From IMG/VR virus record IMGVR_UViG_3300013117_000358, positions 1 through 32,614 of that record: a stretch of 32,614 nucleotides of DNA; one strand, given 5' to 3'. Below are positions 422 to 22,102 of the stretch, in pieces; within the stretch, counting starts at the first letter, position 1, and each line of letters opens with the position of its first letter. This stretch comes from a virus. The notes under the pieces were generated by a model that worked only from the letters and a program-made list of their open reading frames with translations, was not told the DNA's origin and searched no databases. The translations under genes were made by a program, and so were the position numbers.

Positions 422-787
422 CTATATAGAGATCACATCAACGCCGGCCGACTCTAATAGTCGTGCCGTCAATCCATAATTCTTGCCACATGAAGGTGAA
501 TCGTGCAGTAAATACGCCCTTGTTATGCCCAACTTCTGACATAAAGCCAAAGTTCTTTCCGCCCCTAGCTTGTAATGGGTGGTATAATCTCGTCGCGTGC
601 GTCTTCCTATAATACGATCGCCCTCCACATTACAGCCCTCGCGTGGTAAGGTTAGGCCTCCCATCATCTCTGGGCAGACCGCCACATAATCTTCCCTCTC
701 ACCCAACTCTAGCAACAATTTCCGAAAATAACCATTACCTCTATAGCGACACTTAACACCTGCGCAGCATTTACTTATGAGGAACAT
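422..787 (-). CDS. DUF523 / TudS-like iron-sulfur desulfidase family protein
   Basis: This 121-residue protein carries the DUF523 signature: ISKCCAGVKCRYRG at the N-terminus, VCPEMMGG near residue 37 and HDSPSCGKNYG near residue 96. Cys7, Cys13, Cys38 and Cys100 are likely cluster-ligand positions. DUF523 includes TudS, a [4Fe-4S] enzyme that removes sulfur from 2-thiouracil. The domain is slightly shorter than usual (about 150 residues). The ATG at 787 lies inside the end of the upstream ParB/PP-loop gene (13-base overlap) and has a GGAGAG ribosome site, so the two are translationally coupled. It ends in TAG. The gene is AT-richer than the early operon. A desulfidase beside a PP-loop ATPase suggests joint sulfur chemistry on nucleobases or DNA, but the substrate is unknown. 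Confidence 0.8.
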   Translation of the reverse strand: MFLISKCCAGVKCRYRGNGYFRKLLLELGEREDYVAVCPEMMGGLTLPREGCNVEGDRIIGRRTRRDYTTHYKLGAERTLALCQKLGITRAYLLHDSPSCGKNYGLTARLLESAGVDVISI

Positions 788-2076
788 CCGTTCTCTCCTT
801 TGTCGGCCAACGTTTCAAAACACTTAGGCGCGCCTTCCCATGAACTCCAATAGCCCACACCTAATTTTTTTTCCAGCCACAACAACTCTTTCCACACATC
901 AGGATAATTACGACGTATGGCCGCATAGGTGGCTGGCGTCTGTCCAGGGCAGATGCGGCATGCTGTACGGCCCAAACCGCGTTCATAACCACACCATATA
1001 CTCAAACCAGCTTCGCGCAACATCTGCTCTGCTAAATTTTTATTCGTGAAGTATAACGGCTGAAAAAACAAATATTCTGGCATGCGCTTCAGAGTCAGGA
1101 ATCGATCGGCCTGTTTTTTCGCTCGCGCCGCTTTTTCTAAATATCTCCCTCCTCGTAGAATAATGATGTCCTTCGGGGCTTCTCTCAACCAACGCACATC
1201 CATAGGGCCATGCAGATAATTATGGCAATAGGGGTGGGTATGATGCGGCCACTCCCTTTTTTTTAGAAAGACATCTATTATATTCAGCTCCGACCGTAAT
1301 ACCTCCAATTCACACTCCAAACAATTAGCGACGCTATCTAGATGTTGATGAAAACCTACGTAGTCCGCGCCCATATCAACGTAGCACAACGTTATCTTGC
1401 TCTCTGGATAAAACTTCTTAGCCCACAATACGGCTGATGTCGAATCCTTGCCTCCTGAGAATTCCACAAGGAAGCGCTTCCCCTTCAATTTCGCCCTTTC
1501 TTCTCGTGTTGGTTTAAGTTCCTCCCAAGAGCAGTGTCTAATATCCGCAGTTTCTATCTCTGGCGCTTCGTCCTTGAACCAACCCACCTCCAGCTTGCCC
1601 ATGTGAATCTGCGGAAGATCCATCTCAAGCTTCAACTCCGAGAAGTCGAGGCCGCCCTCGCCGATGAACTCATAGACACTCTCCTCCGTGTACCTCCCGT
1701 ATTGCGAAGCGGCGAGCAAGACTTTCTTCTTCGCCTCCTTCTCGGAGTTCGCCTCGATCCAAGCCACCGGCAACTTGCCGCCCGCCAGTGTGTAGCCCTC
1801 TTTCATCATCTGCTGAATGGTGAACAGCCGCTGGTGACCATCGATCACTTTATGGCAACCTCGCTTGTCTCGCCAGACGAAGAGCGGGAAAGAGAAGCCG
1901 CTCGTCTCAATGGCTTTTCTGAGCTTCGCGTACTCCTTCTCACTCAGCGTCTTCAGGTTGCTTTGAAAGTGCTGTAGACTGCAAAGGAGCACCATCGCTG
2001 CGCCTTTGCAGGTGATTCTTATCTGCTTCGGGAGCGGCTTTTTCCTAGTCGTCTTCTTGGCTTTCTTCTTCGCCAT
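775..2076 (-). CDS. ParB-like domain fused to PP-loop ATPase (PAPS reductase/DndC-like)
   Basis: This 433-residue two-domain protein has a Lys-rich start (MAKKKAKKTTRKK) and a ParB/Srx-type module with the hallmark DGHQRL at residues 79-84. From about residue 200 there is a PP-loop adenine nucleotide alpha hydrolase domain with VEFSGGKDST (SGGKDS at 207-212). The later cysteines at 284, 373 and 376 (CRIC) could bind metal or carry sulfur. PP-loop proteins of this class activate a substrate with ATP, often before sulfur insertion (DndC, PAPS reductase, tRNA thiolases). ParB-like domains occur in DNA-binding or nuclease proteins such as DndB. The DNA half encoding the PP-loop is visibly AT-richer than the ParB half (shift near 1545), suggesting a mosaic origin. 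It overlaps the DUF523 gene. The substrate is unknown. Confidence 0.85.
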   Translation of the reverse strand: MAKKKAKKTTRKKPLPKQIRITCKGAAMVLLCSLQHFQSNLKTLSEKEYAKLRKAIETSGFSFPLFVWRDKRGCHKVIDGHQRLFTIQQMMKEGYTLAGGKLPVAWIEANSEKEAKKKVLLAASQYGRYTEESVYEFIGEGGLDFSELKLEMDLPQIHMGKLEVGWFKDEAPEIETADIRHCSWEELKPTREERAKLKGKRFLVEFSGGKDSTSAVLWAKKFYPESKITLCYVDMGADYVGFHQHLDSVANCLECELEVLRSELNIIDVFLKKREWPHHTHPYCHNYLHGPMDVRWLREAPKDIIILRGGRYLEKAARAKKQADRFLTLKRMPEYLFFQPLYFTNKNLAEQMLREAGLSIWCGYERGLGRTACRICPGQTPATYAAIRRNYPDVWKELLWLEKKLGVGYWSSWEGAPKCFETLADKGENGCSS

Positions 2077-5187: not shown

Positions 5188-5337
5188 TCACCACCTCTTC
5201 TTCCGCTCGTGACTCTTCCCGCAGACGGCCATGCCGATCCCGTTGTAACGCACCGCCGGCGCCTGGCCGCACATCTGGCACCGGATGCGCAGCCGCTTGA
5301 GCTTTTTCGCTTCGTCTCTACGCTTGGTCTTTTTCAT
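5188..5337 (-). CDS. Small zinc-ribbon-like protein (49 residues)
   Basis: The ATG at 5337 overlaps the stop of the cytosine methyltransferase gene (ATGA). The protein is Lys/Arg-rich (MKKTKRRDEAKKLKRLRI) with CQMCG, then C-x-x-SH near the end, consistent with a single zinc knuckle. It is separated by 4 bases from the next start. The first 11 bases of this gene are identical to the start of the other methyltransferase at 7147 and lie within a 23-bp direct repeat. Function unknown; nucleic-acid binding is plausible. Confidence 0.6.
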   Translation of the reverse strand: MKKTKRRDEAKKLKRLRIRCQMCGQAPAVRYNGIGMAVCGKSHERKKRW

Positions 5338-5349
5338 TGAACCGTGCCC
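5327..5349. repeat. 23-bp direct repeat, copy 1 (left boundary of methyltransferase pair)
   Basis: The sequence GTCTTTTTCATTGAA-C-CGTGCCC spans the stop/start junction between the cytosine methyltransferase and the small zinc gene. It matches 7137-7159 at 22 of 23 positions. Confidence 0.7.
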
Positions 5350-6164
5350 TCCTCGAAGAGACGCCGCTGTCCTCCGGCCTCCTTCTTTGGTCGCTTGTCC
5401 CGGCCTTTCTTTCCGGCTCCTCGCTTGACGAGCCTCCGTTCCTCGCCCGTCATCAGGCTTCGGATCGCCTCGAATTCGCCGAAGTCCCCGCGCTCGAGTA
5501 TGCGGCACAGCTCGTCCAGGACCGTCCCGCCATCCATGGTCTCCATGTTCACGATGCCGGGGACGTTCTCCATGCACATCGTTCGGGGTTGCATCTCCGT
5601 CACGAGCCGGGCGAATTCGAAGGTGAGGTTGTTCCGCGGGTCGGCTACCTGCCGCTTTCCCATGAAGGAGAAGCCCTGGCACGGCGGCCCGCCCACGACC
5701 AGGTCGAGTTCGCCCCGCTCGAGGCCGATGGACTCCAGGATGCGCCTACCGCTCAGCTTCGACGCGTCGCCGAACCAGTAGACCGGTACGCCTTCCCACC
5801 CAGGCGGGCCCCAGTTCTGCCGGTTCGATCCCGATACGCACGCCATCTCGACGAGGCCGCCCTCGCTCTTCTTCAGCATGTGCTTCTGCATGAACGCCTC
5901 CAAGCGCTTCTCGTCCTCAGGCTCGACAAACCGTATGTCGACACGGTCAGCGCCGAGATTGACCAGGTAGGTCAGCAGGCAGTTCTCGTCGTTGTCCACG
6001 CCGGCGAGCACGTGGAAGCCTGCCTCGAGCAGGCCGAGGCTGAAGCCCCCGGCTCCACAGAACAGGTCAACGGCCGTCAACCTCTTCATGAGGTGAGCTG
6101 GCACCGCTAGACCGGAGGGGTGCTCACACCACTCGACCGCGTCGTTGTTCCCGTCAATCAACAT
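5334..6164 (-). CDS. DNA (cytosine-5) methyltransferase, short form lacking the target-recognition region
   Basis: A 276-residue protein with motif I VDLFCGAGGFSLGL (from residue 32), motif IV GGPPCQGFS (158-166, catalytic Cys162) and motif VI ENVPGI (199-204). It would transfer a methyl group from SAM to cytosine C5. After motif VI only about 75 residues follow, ending Lys/Arg-rich. I see no motif VIII (QxRxR), no target-recognition domain and no motifs IX-X, so it is shorter than the usual 330-450 residues. Similar short forms occur in phages; activity may need a partner or be lost. The start ATG 6164 follows GGAGG at 6 bases and overlaps the upstream methyltransferase gene by 7 bases. Confidence 0.88.
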   Translation of the reverse strand: MLIDGNNDAVEWCEHPSGLAVPAHLMKRLTAVDLFCGAGGFSLGLLEAGFHVLAGVDNDENCLLTYLVNLGADRVDIRFVEPEDEKRLEAFMQKHMLKKSEGGLVEMACVSGSNRQNWGPPGWEGVPVYWFGDASKLSGRRILESIGLERGELDLVVGGPPCQGFSFMGKRQVADPRNNLTFEFARLVTEMQPRTMCMENVPGIVNMETMDGGTVLDELCRILERGDFGEFEAIRSLMTGEERRLVKRGAGKKGRDKRPKKEAGGQRRLFEEGTVQ

Positions 6165-7147
6165 CCCCGGCCTCCGAGCTCTGAATTGAAAAGCGGCATG
6201 TCTTCCTTGATCCGCCTCTTGGCCATCTCGGCGTATTCAGGGTTGAGCTCGATACCGATAAAATTCCGCCCGTTTCGAAGTGCTACAACGCCTGTCGTGC
6301 CCGAGCCACAGAATGGATCGAGGACGGTACCCCCAATAGGGCACCCGGCCAGAATACAGGGCTCTACCAGCTTCTCTGGGAATGTCGCGAAGTGCGCTTC
6401 TGGATAGGGCCGGGTGGCGATTGTCCAGACGGAACGCTTATTGCGGCCTAATTCTGGGCGATTATACCCAAGATTGCCGCCCTTATGCCCTGCACCCAAT
6501 CCAGCGTTTCTATATGCTTCGCCGCGTCTTCCCCCATCGTTCCGGCTAGTCTCTGGGCGAGGTGTACATCGCGCCCTCTCCGCTATCGCCTCCGCGTCGT
6601 AGTAATAACTCTGACTCTTCGCCAGCAAGAAAATGTACTCATGTGCTTTGGTCGGCCTGTCCGTCACGCTTTCGGGCATCGGATTCGGCTTGCTCCAGAT
6701 GATGTCGGAGCGGAGCCACCAGCCGTCCGCCTGTAAGGCAAAGGCTACCCGCCACGGGATGCCTACTAGATTCTTTGGTTTGAGAGTCGTTCGCCGTCTT
6801 GGCCGTATCCTGTCAATGCCCGCCTGTTTATTTGCTGAAGAATGCTTGCCATGCCAACGCTCGTTAAAGCCTTCATCTCTTCGCGGATTACCAGAATAAC
6901 TATCCCCAAGATTTAGCCAAGCTGTGCCATCCTTCCTCAACACCCGACGCAGCTCACGGAATACCTGTACCATTTTCTCGATGTATTCCTCTGGCGTGTT
7001 TTCAAGTCCGAGCTGCCCTTCGATGCCGTAGTCCCGGAGCCTCCAGTAGGGCGGTGAAGTCACGACGCAATTCACGGAGCCTTCGGGTAGACCTGGTAGA
7101 AGCCCCAAGATGTCGCCCTGTAGGATCCGTGAATTTGTCTTTTTCAT
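6158..7147 (-). CDS. DNA methyltransferase, beta-class (N4-cytosine or N6-adenine)
   Basis: A 329-residue protein with motif IV first (VVTSPPYWRLRDYGIEGQLG, residues 28-47) and the SAM-binding motif I near the end (DPFCGSGTTG, 277-286, followed by NFIGIELNPEY). That order defines beta-class amino-methyltransferases. SPPY favours N4-cytosine but does not exclude N6-adenine. The central region (about 85-240) should hold target recognition. The start ATG 7147 overlaps the upstream stop by ATGA. Together with the cytosine methyltransferase it forms a pair bracketed by 23-bp repeats. The likely role is protection of phage DNA from host restriction; no matching restriction enzyme is present. Confidence 0.92.
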   Translation of the reverse strand: MKKTNSRILQGDILGLLPGLPEGSVNCVVTSPPYWRLRDYGIEGQLGLENTPEEYIEKMVQVFRELRRVLRKDGTAWLNLGDSYSGNPRRDEGFNERWHGKHSSANKQAGIDRIRPRRRTTLKPKNLVGIPWRVAFALQADGWWLRSDIIWSKPNPMPESVTDRPTKAHEYIFLLAKSQSYYYDAEAIAERARCTPRPETSRNDGGRRGEAYRNAGLGAGHKGGNLGYNRPELGRNKRSVWTIATRPYPEAHFATFPEKLVEPCILAGCPIGGTVLDPFCGSGTTGVVALRNGRNFIGIELNPEYAEMAKRRIKEDMPLFNSELGGRGC

Positions 7148-18134: not shown

Positions 18135-19241
18135 ATGGCTTGTATACGCTATCGTCCATTTGCGAAAAAATGGGGGGTCGACTATCGGGATGAAGACGGG
18201 AAGCGCCGGTGGATAACCTGCGAGAGCCGGGCGGCGGCAAAGCAATTGCTCGCCGAAAAAACGCGGGATCCGGGGAGGGATCCACGGGAAACATTCGGCG
18301 CTGTTGCAATGCGCTGGCTAAATATTACGAAGGCGCTCATCCGGCCACAGTCCTGGAAGCATTACGAGGTGCACCTTCGCTTGCACCTACTCCCGAGATT
18401 CGGCGAGCTCAAGATCGCCAAGATCACGAGGAGCATGCTTCTCGAGTATCTCACCGGGAAAATGGCAACACTCGCGCCGCGGACGGTGTACGGACTGCGC
18501 ACCACGCTCTATTCGATCTTCGAGTTTGCCGTGGAGTACGAAGGGCTGTCGAAAAACCCGGTGAAGGGCTTGTCCAAAAAGCTCAAAATCAAGCTCAAGA
18601 CGACCGCGGGAGTCAGCAAGGCGTTCACGAAGGAACAGCTCCAGAAATTACTTGAGGCGGCGCGAGCCATCGGCTCCGCTATATACCCGCTGATCATGGT
18701 GATGGCTAGAGCCGGGCTGAGGACTGGAGAAGCCACGGCGCTCAAGTGGACGGACATGGACTTCAAGGAGCGGACGATCTTGGTGGCGCGCACCTGGGTG
18801 GGGACGAGGCTCCAGGCATTCCCGAAAACGGCGAGCTCGTACCGCAAGGTGGATATGAGCCTCCAGCTCCGTGATACACTCCGAAAATTGCAGAAGGAGC
18901 ACAAGGAGAAAAAACTGGCTCTCGGCTGGCGCGATATGCCGGACTGGGTGTTCACCACGAGCACGGGGAAGCCGATGCGAAGTTATGGGCGCATCTCAGC
19001 ATTGTTCAAGGACGTGCTCAGGGCGGCGCGCTTACCGCTTCACTTCTCGCCTCACAGCTTGCGGCATACTTTCGCGTGCCTCCACCTCCAGGCCGGCGCG
19101 AATCCTGCCTACATTCAGAAGCAGCTCGGCCACGCGAGTATCCAGATGACGGTGGACTTGTACGGCTCATGGTTGCCGCTTCGGGATCTCGACGCGGCGG
19201 ATCGGTTGGATGATATTTCGGAGCAGAGGAGTTTGTGGTGA
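18135..19241 (+). CDS. int: Tyrosine-type phage integrase
   Basis: A 368-residue protein on the plus strand, opposite to nearly all neighbours. The start ATG follows GGAGGCATC. It has an N-terminal arm-binding-like part (about 1-55), a core-binding SAM-like domain (about 55-150), then the catalytic domain. Box I is ARAGLRTGEA (Arg196) and a beta-hairpin Lys lies in KTASSYRKVDM. SLRHTF follows with His307 and Arg310, LGHASIQMT with His333, and DLYGSW with the nucleophile Tyr343. All catalytic residues are present. It would insert the phage into the host chromosome, probably at a tRNA gene. It is bracketed by TTACAA/TTGTAA clusters, with a CRP-like site and a hairpin upstream. Confidence 0.95.
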   Translation: MACIRYRPFAKKWGVDYRDEDGKRRWITCESRAAAKQLLAEKTRDPGRDPRETFGAVAMRWLNITKALIRPQSWKHYEVHLRLHLLPRFGELKIAKITRSMLLEYLTGKMATLAPRTVYGLRTTLYSIFEFAVEYEGLSKNPVKGLSKKLKIKLKTTAGVSKAFTKEQLQKLLEAARAIGSAIYPLIMVMARAGLRTGEATALKWTDMDFKERTILVARTWVGTRLQAFPKTASSYRKVDMSLQLRDTLRKLQKEHKEKKLALGWRDMPDWVFTTSTGKPMRSYGRISALFKDVLRAARLPLHFSPHSLRHTFACLHLQAGANPAYIQKQLGHASIQMTVDLYGSWLPLRDLDAADRLDDISEQRSLW

Positions 19242-19326: not shown

Positions 19327-19443
19327 TACTTTCTGGGACTTAGAGGGTATATCGCGGGTACTTTCTGGGACTTAGAGGGTATATCGCGGGTACTTTCTGG
19401 GACTTAGAGGGTATATGGAAGGATCTTTTTAGGACTTTGTGGG
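19327..19443 (+). repeat. 32-bp tandem repeat, 2.8 perfect copies plus a decayed copy
   Basis: Two identical 32-bp units occupy 19327-19358 and 19359-19390 (beginning TACTTTCTGGGACTTAGAGG), and the first 26 bases of a third occupy 19391-19416. A diverged version (CTTTTTAGGACTTTGTGGG) lies at 19425-19443. There are no spacers, so it is not a CRISPR. It sits between two converging genes, just after the TTGTAA cluster. Confidence 0.8.
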
Positions 19444-19456
19444 AATGCGGGCGGAA

Positions 19457-19984
19457 TTAAAGGTAACCTCCCAGGAGTTCCAGGAGACGGTCTTCCCGCT
19501 TCTTTGGGAGAGGCTTCTTTGCACTCTCCCAAAGGGAGACGTCCTTTTGAGAAACTCCGACCTTATCCGCGAGCACCGCTTGTTTCCACCCGGCTTTCTG
19601 GCGAGCCTTCCGTATGTCCGCCGGCGAGAGCCCTCCGGGTCTCGATGGTATGAGGACCGACGGAAGCAACTCCTCCTCGTCCACGGTCTTTATGCCAGCC
19701 TCCTCCAAACGGGCTTGGAGGCGGTCTTCTAAATCCGCGGGAAGATAGAATTTAAGCTTCAGGTCATATGCGGCCGGCGGGTTGTTACGGTAGGCCTGAA
19801 GCGTATTAATGGCGCTTTTGTCGCGATCTACGGCTTGCAGCTCCAAGTGGAGGTCTAGAGCATCCGCGAGTCCCTGGAGATCCTCAATGAACTTCTCGAA
19901 CGCTCGGGATCCACCTCTGGGCCCCGTGCGCTTCTCGTGCTGAAAACGCTGCTTGAGCTGGTCGATGAGCGCCTGGAGGATCAT
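19457..19984 (-). CDS. XRE-domain protein coupled to the PglX-like gene
   Basis: 175 residues; the ATG at 19984 overlaps the upstream stop by one base (TGATG). The first two thirds (from MILQALIDQLKQRFQHEKRT) are helical with a beta segment (YDLKLKFYLPADLEDRLQAR) and match nothing I recognise. The C-terminal 55 residues are an XRE helix-turn-helix: LSPADIRKARQKAGWKQAVL, then ADKVGVSQKDVSLWESAKKP. It could regulate or partner the preceding specificity protein, as controller proteins do for restriction-modification operons. It ends next to the 32-bp tandem repeats. Confidence 0.7.
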   Translation of the reverse strand: MILQALIDQLKQRFQHEKRTGPRGGSRAFEKFIEDLQGLADALDLHLELQAVDRDKSAINTLQAYRNNPPAAYDLKLKFYLPADLEDRLQARLEEAGIKTVDEEELLPSVLIPSRPGGLSPADIRKARQKAGWKQAVLADKVGVSQKDVSLWESAKKPLPKKREDRLLELLGGYL

Positions 19985-21906
19985 CACACCACTTTCCCGA
20001 TGCGCAGGATCCCGGCCTTCTGCAACGGCTCGATGTTGACCTTCACACCGTCGTCGATGTCCGGGTCCCATCCCTTGGGTCGATTCTCCGGCGACTTCCA
20101 CGGCGTCAGGATGCGATAGTCACGGTCGCCGCCCTCGGCACCTTCGTAGTGACCTTCCTGAACCGCTTGAAGCCGGCGGTCGAGGGCCTGCGCTTCCTCG
20201 AGCTTCGCCTGGCAATCGACACGGTCGTCTGCGCGGCCCTCCTTGTCGGCCAGCGCAGCTTCGCGCCGAAACGCCTCGATAGCATCGCGCAGGTAGCCGG
20301 CGCGCAGCTTGGCCATGCGGTTCCCGTCAAGCTTGTGGTAGTGGCAAAGCGCGCCAAACGCGAAAGGCGAGCTGCCCTGAGTGCTCGCGATGTGCCAGAT
20401 GATGGGGCGCTTCTTATAGAGCGCGACGTGGTAGTCGAAGTAGACGTTGTCGAGCCATTCCGCGATGCTCGATGCATGCTTGTAGCCCTTGACCTTGCGC
20501 TTCAGCTCGTTGGTGATCTCGACCTCGACCTGGTTGATGTCCTGTTCGGGGAAAAGCCGGGCGAGCTCCTGCTGAACGCGGTAGAGCAGGCTTGTCTCGC
20601 CGGAAAGGGGGGAGAAGGGAACGATACCATCTTCGTCTGCCTCGACGACGCTTTTGGCCACATAGGAGAGCAGACGCCAGACGTGCTCCATACGCTTCTG
20701 TTCAACGGTCTTGCGCTCCATCTGCGGCCACAGAATCTCGGGCGGCCGTTCGCCGAGGGTCTCCTCGATGATCGTCCGAGTGCTGTCGGAGATGCCGTAG
20801 AGCTTGTAGACCTCGTCGTTCAGATCTGCATACAAACTTTGAATTCGGGACTCTTCACTGGCCGCGTGTGACGAGATGACCTTTAGGCGGTCCGAGATGG
20901 CGACGTTGTCTGTATTTGTCGTCTTAGAGATTAGCCATGGCAGATGAAATGTTGTCGAGATTTCATTACCTTCGTCCCACTTCAGTTTTGTATCGTGAAT
21001 TGAGCGAGCCCATTCGCCAAGCCGTTCCTTCCTTTCCTTGTTTATCCGAGGGACTGGAACCCGTCGCAGGACGCCCGCCTCCCAGCTAAAGGATGTGAGA
21101 GACCCCATAATGAACTCAACCATGGCCGAATTTAAGATTCCCGCGATCATGGCAGTATCCGAAACGTCATTAGGGAAAAAGGCTGGCCCCTTGTCTCCAA
21201 ATATGCATCCTTCAGGCATCCAACGAATGTTGAATCCCTTGGCAGTACGTCTCGGCCAAGTCAGACCAGGTCGATGCAGATATCCCGAACTGCTTGACGT
21301 TAGGAGCACATTGAAATTGGATTTGCGGTCCGCATAAGCTCTGTGAGCACGATCATCCCAACGAACGACCAAATAGACATCGCTATGGAATCTGGAAAAG
21401 CCGCCGCCCTTTGCGAAAGGCCGCCACTTCTCTCCTGCGCCAACGGAGTCAGGGTCTACTTCCCACCACATTCGAACAAAGCGATCATCATTGAAAGTCT
21501 GATGGCCGATCTTGGTCTCCCCAATGGAAGGACACACTGGCACGTGGTCGCGGAAGAGGTGCGCCACCACGCCGATTCTGGAATAGGCTAGTGGCGCACC
21601 TTCAATGATCGCGAAATCTCGCCGAGCCACGTCAAATCGAGTGCGTTTCTCCTTGCCGCCGACGGCCTGAACGAAGGCATCGCGCCTTCGGTCCAGAGCA
21701 TCTTTTCCTGACCGAAACATCTCTAGGTTAAAGAATGCGACCTTCTCTCCCTCACTAACGATGTAGTACGCCCGATCCGCTTGCTCCTCGGTCGTGTCGA
21801 TTCCTTCCCGCGCCTGCGTTGCTTGAATCGTGGACACCATCAGCTTCCGCCGGAGATCCGGATCGGCCAGGATGGCCTTGACGTTGACGCGCTTATTCTT
21901 CGCCAT
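19984..21906 (-). CDS. PglX/type IIL-like specificity (C-terminal) module without a methyltransferase domain
   Basis: 640 residues from ATG 21906 (GGGAGG before it). Residues 1-50 (RVNVKAILADPDLRRKLMVS, AREGIDTTEEQADRAYYIV) look like a separate small domain. From about 96 the sequence RDFAIIEGAPLAY, then FVRMWWEVDPDSVG and KWRPFAKGGGFSRF, GLTWPRRTAKGFNIRWMPEG and CIFGDKGPAFFP (about 214-245), matches the region after the catalytic core in BREX PglX and Eco57I/type IIL enzymes. The end (KRPIIWHIAS, FGALCHYHKLDGNRMAKLRA, DIDDGVKVNIEPLQKAGIL) is the PglX-type C-terminus. The N-terminal SAM and NPPY motifs are absent and no such gene lies upstream. It may be a decoy, a specificity subunit or a relic. 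Confidence 0.75.
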   Translation of the reverse strand: MAKNKRVNVKAILADPDLRRKLMVSTIQATQAREGIDTTEEQADRAYYIVSEGEKVAFFNLEMFRSGKDALDRRRDAFVQAVGGKEKRTRFDVARRDFAIIEGAPLAYSRIGVVAHLFRDHVPVCPSIGETKIGHQTFNDDRFVRMWWEVDPDSVGAGEKWRPFAKGGGFSRFHSDVYLVVRWDDRAHRAYADRKSNFNVLLTSSSSGYLHRPGLTWPRRTAKGFNIRWMPEGCIFGDKGPAFFPNDVSDTAMIAGILNSAMVEFIMGSLTSFSWEAGVLRRVPVPRINKERKERLGEWARSIHDTKLKWDEGNEISTTFHLPWLISKTTNTDNVAISDRLKVISSHAASEESRIQSLYADLNDEVYKLYGISDSTRTIIEETLGERPPEILWPQMERKTVEQKRMEHVWRLLSYVAKSVVEADEDGIVPFSPLSGETSLLYRVQQELARLFPEQDINQVEVEITNELKRKVKGYKHASSIAEWLDNVYFDYHVALYKKRPIIWHIASTQGSSPFAFGALCHYHKLDGNRMAKLRAGYLRDAIEAFRREAALADKEGRADDRVDCQAKLEEAQALDRRLQAVQEGHYEGAEGGDRDYRILTPWKSPENRPKGWDPDIDDGVKVNIEPLQKAGILRIGKVV

Positions 21907-21973
21907 CGCTCGCCTCCCAGCGCTCAAGTGCGGCGTCTTCCCACTCACTGATGAGCGAGGCCATTGGCTCGTA

Positions 21974-22102
21974 GTGAAGGATGAAGCGAAGTCCTTTGTC
22001 GAGGGGGAGGCGCGTCTCGTGAAAAGGTTGCGCGAAGAAAAAGACTGTGAGTACTGGCTCGTGCGCTTCCTGAATGAATCCGGAACTTACCCTCGAAGAG
22101 AA
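21974..22102 (+). pseudogene. Plus-strand remnant of an 'EGxAxLV...YPR' small protein
   Basis: The frame reads KDEAKSFVEGEARLVKRLRE, then EKDCEYWLVRFLNESGTYPR. It is clearly homologous to the protein at 15651-15836. A GTG at 21974 could start it, but there is no clear ribosome site, and after YPRRE the frame runs on without a stop into the antisense of the next gene. It is therefore probably a fragment. Confidence 0.5.

Follow-up and report, generated by a model that had tools for sequence, protein, structure and literature searches.

PglX determines the specificity of BREX systems, in methylation and in defence alike (PMC11341690). In the published PglX structure, residues 662 to 849 form the target-recognition domain, residues 850 to 960 a helical spacer and residues 961 to 1225 the C-terminal region (PMC11341690). 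In type I restriction systems, solitary hsdS genes carried by plasmids or chromosomes broaden the available specificities (PMC13335696). Also relevant here are the Fic antitoxins, which carry the inhibitory motif [S/T]xxxE[G/N] (PMC5033356). The motif glutamate pairs with the second arginine of the Fic protein.

Here we describe a gene, pglX-C, in a 32,614-nucleotide stretch of viral DNA (IMG/VR record IMGVR_UViG_3300013117_000358, positions 1 to 32,614; hereafter the window). Sequence comparison makes it almost certain that this is a complete recognition-subunit gene captured from a bacterial split-PglX BREX-1 operon and now situated next to a temperate-phage integrase gene.

Results

The phage gene encodes the recognition half of PglX

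The pglX-C gene extends over positions 19984 to 21906 of the minus strand, where 640 codons run from an ATG without interruption. It is preceded by the ribosome-binding site GGGAGG (21913 to 21918, minus strand), located 6 nt before the ATG and within the remnant of a fic gene, and GGGAG stands at the equivalent spot in bacterial split-PglX operons. The initial annotation had described a full open gene with a good ribosome site, which is borne out. The span that it gave, 19457 to 21906, is right as to the start at 21906, but 19457 is the stop of a neighboring XRE gene and pglX-C ends at 19984.

The open frame, the family matches and a 14-member alignment identify the intact 640-residue product as the half of a split BREX-1 PglX that comprises the target-recognition, spacer and C-terminal regions. 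It matches the NCBIfam family BREX_1_MTaseX (4.4e-65), with residues 40 to 415 aligned on positions 605 to 981 of the 1210-position profile. Its score of 220 bits falls under the family cut-off of 500 bits because the first half of PglX is missing. The PADLOC PglX profile also matches (2.6e-51). From its residue 92 onward, the product aligns with the solved PglX/BrxX proteins 8c45, 8zek and 9ewz (2.8e-22), beginning at their residue 645. A structural model derived from 14 members of the family was compared with the PDB by fold; the top six hits are all PglX/BrxX, and nothing but PglX/BrxX is significant. Given the published domain limits (PMC11341690), pglX-C thus spans the target-recognition domain, the spacer and the C-terminal region. 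The AlphaFold model has a mean pLDDT of 68 and is unreliable at residues 135 to 223, and we therefore make no claims about DNA contacts.

The recognition, spacer and C-terminal regions of a one-piece PglX are thus all present, whereas the N6-adenine methyltransferase with SAM and NPPY motifs is absent from the chain, and no Eco57I-type methylase domain was found anywhere in the window. The family, structure and fold matches therefore uphold the proposal of a PglX-like specificity module without methyltransferase in a phage. The window also contains adjacent C5-cytosine and N6/N4 methylase genes (5334 to 7147, minus strand) with no restriction enzyme seen; both belong to families other than the Eco57I type.

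PglX is encoded by two genes in a group of BREX-1 operons

A scan of 84,980 genomes revealed 15 relatives of the phage gene, and a scan of the viral collection one more. Most of them align from residue 1-6 to residue 636-640, and the full-length relatives in BREX operons are 52-64% identical to the phage protein. The gene order around them is brxA-brxB-brxC-pglX-N-fic-pglX-C-pglZ-brxL, in which brxA is named by position only and the other genes by Pfam or family matches. All eight genes are found together at ten loci (L001 to L007, L010, L013 and L014). Locus L009 begins within brxC and has an insert between its fic and pglX-C genes, and the remaining loci are cut by contig ends. The pglX-N product, about 695 residues long, has an Eco57I domain and the motifs DPACGT and NPPY, and aligns with residues 6 to 610 of PglX. 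The methyltransferase half is thus a separate gene, two genes upstream of pglX-C. As read from these genes, PglX is divided into two subunits, of which pglX-C would be the natural second.

This arrangement replaces part of the earlier interpretation, in which the SAM and NPPY domain was said to be replaced by about 95 residues, implying a new architecture that arose in the phage protein. Similarity to PglX starts at about residue 40 in the profile match, and only residues 1 to 60 are additional. They form an extension that is common to the whole split-PglX family and absent from one-piece PglX. A methyltransferase in frame with pglX-C in relatives, the result that the initial annotation had named as contrary to its proposal, was sought and not found, since it lies in its own gene.

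The split form is rare: in a sample drawn from a phylum, 1 of 396 genomes has it, and in one drawn from a class, 2 of 369, and each of these counts includes the sample's own centre genome, chosen for having the gene. No lone pglX-C was found in bacteria except for fragments at contig ends; a 151-residue match in genome G010 follows the end of pglX-N and a fic gene. This genome, which holds locus L011, contains a second split-BREX piece (G010:C183, L034) made of the pglX-N end, fic and the first part of pglX-C. The words "split" and "Fic" are absent from a 2026 survey of BREX diversity, and neither a description nor a published name of the split-PglX variant was found in the searchable literature, a search that extended to neither subscription papers nor preprints. 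BREX-1 operons with pglX-N, fic and pglX-C as separate genes are apparently undescribed in that literature.

Several of these loci show additional features. In two Chromatiaceae operons, a small gene and a gene for a P-loop protein of about 870-900 residues (KGGVGRT) are inserted between fic and pglX-C (L009, 6780 to 9917; L016, 6164 to 9270). In L008 (1933 to 2683), two small genes between pglX-C and pglZ resemble, by eye only, a toxin-antitoxin pair of a short regulator-like and a PIN-like protein. Locus L001 is IMGVR_UViG_3300001567_000262, a 133-kb record filed in the viral collection in which the entire split-PglX operon of the BREX-1 type is present.

In the collections searched, no other phage had the short form. 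Six matches in the phage collection are 21-24% identical; of those examined, H1 is a one-piece gene on a Salmonella chromosome, H2 a one-piece gene within an entire BREX operon that had been classed as phage, and H5 a short unannotated fragment.

The phage carries a fragment of a split-PglX operon

Homology to the bacterial operons ends within fic on one side of pglX-C and within pglZ on the other, and the captured fragment therefore extends from about 19928 to 21977 (about 2.05 kb) and takes in the end of fic, all of pglX-C and the beginning of pglZ. The fic remnant (21893 to 21977, minus strand) comprises about 24 codons and the stop of the upstream fic gene and overlaps the pglX-C start. 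It shares 74-76% DNA identity over 72 nt with the fic ends of L002, L003 and L006, and none beyond. The pglZ start (19928 to 19984, minus strand) comprises the first 19 codons (MILQALIDQLKQRFQHEKR) and overlaps the pglX-C stop as TGATG. The 57 bases from this overlapping start codon are 79-86% identical to bacterial pglZ starts, after which similarity stops. The phage thus retains the TGATG overlap of the operon, and after 19 pglZ codons the frame enters an XRE-type helix-turn-helix protein. The resulting fusion gene (19457 to 19984, minus strand) matches HTH_3 at residues 125 to 161 (2.9e-07) and phrog_2104 (3.3e-10). The coupled XRE gene seen by the initial annotation is therefore real as an overlap, but the pairing is a by-product of the fusion of the pglZ start to the XRE protein. 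Homology to the split family covers the full length of pglX-C, including the conserved residues 1 to 60, while of the operon context only the fic and pglZ stubs remain, the other BREX genes being missing from the window.

The junctions also bear on whether a scrap of bacterial BREX sequence was joined to phage sequence during metagenome assembly. The fragment is present in a single contig of the viral collection, and a search for a second copy of the junctions found none. Such an error would nevertheless require two separate junctions 2 kb apart, one of which is an in-frame fusion yielding a full-length XRE protein, and G+C is even over the segment (0.55-0.59). We consider an assembly artefact highly improbable.

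The fragment lies beside a phage integrase

A tyrosine integrase gene (18135 to 19241, plus strand; Phage_integrase, 1.1e-26) adjoins the fragment. Between it and the XRE gene, a repeat scan detected a 32-base tandem repeat in 2.8 perfect copies (19327 to 19416), which may possibly serve as an attachment region or as arm sites. Beyond this opposite-strand integrase and repeat, the left side encodes RecT, an SbcC-like protein, and HNH and Holliday-junction nucleases. The genes on the right match phrog_8917 (7.7e-16) and phrog_8610 (9.1e-10), and there is a weak match to tail fibres. A search of the contig with a single large-terminase model found nothing, and the phage collection gave no matches for the two right-hand proteins compared with it; the label "phage" thus rests on the integrase, the replication genes and the phrog and tail-fibre family matches. 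Exact-peptide scans and tblastn with the 887-residue, 472-residue, integrase, 424-residue and XRE proteins found no relatives of the phage. No tRNA was found near the integrase. In a promoter and terminator scan, sites were no more numerous than in shuffled sequences and no promoter was better than chance. Elsewhere in the window, a 433-residue protein (775 to 2076, minus strand) matches GmrSD_N weakly (0.00046), has a part similar to PAPS reductase and SspD (SspD, 7.8e-08), and is possibly the product of a DNA-sulfur-related or nucleotide-modifying gene.

Age of the capture

The phage protein departs from the family at 4 of the 135 positions that are invariant in the other 13 members, whose own range is 1 to 23, and its tree branch measures 0.49 against a family median end branch of 0.38. 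The frame has therefore not decayed. The fic remnant, which no longer yields a Fic protein, provides a measure of time: it is 74-76% identical to bacterial fic ends, and the fic ends of L002 and L003, which belong to working genes, are 69-71% identical to that of L006. The remnant has thus drifted no more than working fic genes, although the ribosome site also constrains part of it. The phage may therefore have acquired the fragment recently, which makes the undecayed frame weak evidence of selection.

The small drift of the remnant supports the main rival explanation, in which illegitimate recombination or an excision error brought a random piece of a host BREX operon into the phage, where it has no function and is still open because little time has passed. 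Broken pieces of fic and pglZ lie on both flanks, the fragment is near the integrase and a single phage is known to carry it. The undecayed pglX-C frame speaks against it, and so does the extent of the fragment, which takes in a single complete gene together with its ribosome site and reaches less than 90 bases past it at each end. The latter argues mildly for use, with the reservation that the argument from the ends was made after the fact. We regard a passenger relic as a possible explanation, if a less than probable one.

The recognition segment varies between conserved ends

Identity of the phage protein to the family is 73% at residues 1 to 60, about 43% at 61 to 345 and 72% at 401 to 640. 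The same pattern is found between bacterial loci. The PglX-C proteins of L008 and L009 are 96% identical at residues 391 to 640 and 36% at 111 to 300. Those of L007 and L009 are 92% identical in the C-terminal part and 36% in the recognition part, with both PglX-N and PglZ at 92%, and those of L013 and L014 share 85% and 41%, respectively. As close operons differ only in the middle of PglX-C, the recognition segment appears to have been exchanged between conserved ends in bacterial operons, as in HsdS.

The best-supported function for the phage protein is that of a subunit that swaps or blocks specificity in hosts with a split BREX, a role that we propose tentatively and stop just short of calling probable. 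In an infected or lysogenic host of this kind, the conserved ends of the phage PglX-C would dock on PglX-N, the methyltransferase subunit that the host encodes separately, and the phage subunit would bring its own recognition segment. The host BREX might thereby gain a second specificity, or its resident specificity might be competed with and blunted. The phage segment could also recombine into the host operon through the conserved ends, with the phage RecT annealase as a possible helper. The initial annotation had suggested a decoy, partner binding or retargeting; of these, retargeting gains in plausibility, since bacteria have a protein whose natural counterpart is such a subunit. The presence of the gene in only one phage of the collections searched counts against a specificity subunit, as do the little-drifted fic remnant and the lack of a promoter better than chance.

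The phage protein could act as a decoy instead, binding and blocking BREX sites or partners such as BrxC or PglZ by itself, with no need for a split PglX in the host. It retains the DNA-recognition, spacer and C-terminal regions that such binding would use. It belongs, however, to a split family, for which PglX-N is the best partner, and the C-terminal domain of a one-piece PglX could not be produced in isolation (PMC11341690), which makes a free decoy very improbable.

A possible Fic antitoxin motif in the N-terminal extension

Residues 30 to 35 of the phage PglX-C, TQAREG, fit the motif [S/T]xxxE[G/N]. A motif of this TQAREG/SQRQEG type is found in 12 of the 14 family members, L replacing the S/T in L004 and L005, and its E and G are invariant in all 14. 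Residues 1 to 60 might thus be a helix that silences the Fic protein of the operon; the phage would then supply an inhibitor but no toxin, and a disturbance of BREX would release no Fic. Consistent with this, the extension is the best-kept stretch of the protein and is absent from one-piece PglX, fic sits immediately upstream of pglX-C in the operons, and phage-borne antitoxin mimics are known for other systems (PMC11481870). The motif nevertheless arises in 4% of shuffled N-termini, and no similarity to VbhA or another antitoxin was found at pglX-C with PF18495 or in Pfam, NCBIfam and PDB scans. In addition, all 14 operon Fic proteins (L001, 7145 to 7999, and those of 13 other loci) read HPFREGNGR(T/A)AF, with phenylalanine for the second arginine of HxFx[D/E]GNGRxxR, the residue that an antitoxin glutamate would pair with. 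On balance, counter-defence of the antitoxin type is unlikely. From this substitution, the chemistry of the operon Fic may be other than ordinary AMPylation.

Both activities might be united, if temperate phages carried exchangeable BREX specificity subunits that double as inhibitors of a Fic guard toxin, one protein retargeting BREX and silencing the guard. We consider this combination quite improbable.

Discussion

In an apparently undescribed BREX-1 variant, the recognition half of PglX varies as a swappable module. If its specificity subunit is detachable, such a BREX would resemble type I restriction, in which lone specificity genes on mobile elements retarget the resident system, and a phage that carries such a subunit makes BREX retargeting testable. 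The phage gene also provides a natural, separately encoded PglX recognition subunit, unlike the C-terminal domain of the one-piece protein (PMC11341690).

The BREX-1 PglX/BrxX enzymes (8c45, 8q56, 9ewz, 8zek) share the recognition domain, helical spacer and C-terminal region with the phage protein from its residue 92 to its end, but these one-piece enzymes hold the methyltransferase in the chain, whereas the phage protein lacks it and has the added residues 1 to 60. The split-PglX operons L001 to L016 share with it full-length homology, gene ends, the ribosome site and the TGATG overlap with pglZ; of the operon, the phage has only pglX-C and stubs of fic and pglZ, and none of the other BREX genes. 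The 743-residue partial PglX near an integrase in Lactobacillus rhamnosus (PMC7513527) is likewise a PglX piece encoded as a separate gene, but it shares its locus with a full-length pglX, whereas the phage contig has no other pglX. Class I Fic antitoxins (VbhA, FicA) also have a helix with [S/T]xxxE[G/N] and a neighboring fic gene; the phage protein differs in showing no profile similarity to them, in its partner Fic without the second arginine and in its fusion to a DNA-recognition protein. Finally, orphan HsdS proteins of type I systems (PMC13335696) belong to a different protein family, but the phage PglX-C may work in a similar way: like them it would be a lone specificity subunit on a mobile element, and it has a variable recognition segment between conserved parts.
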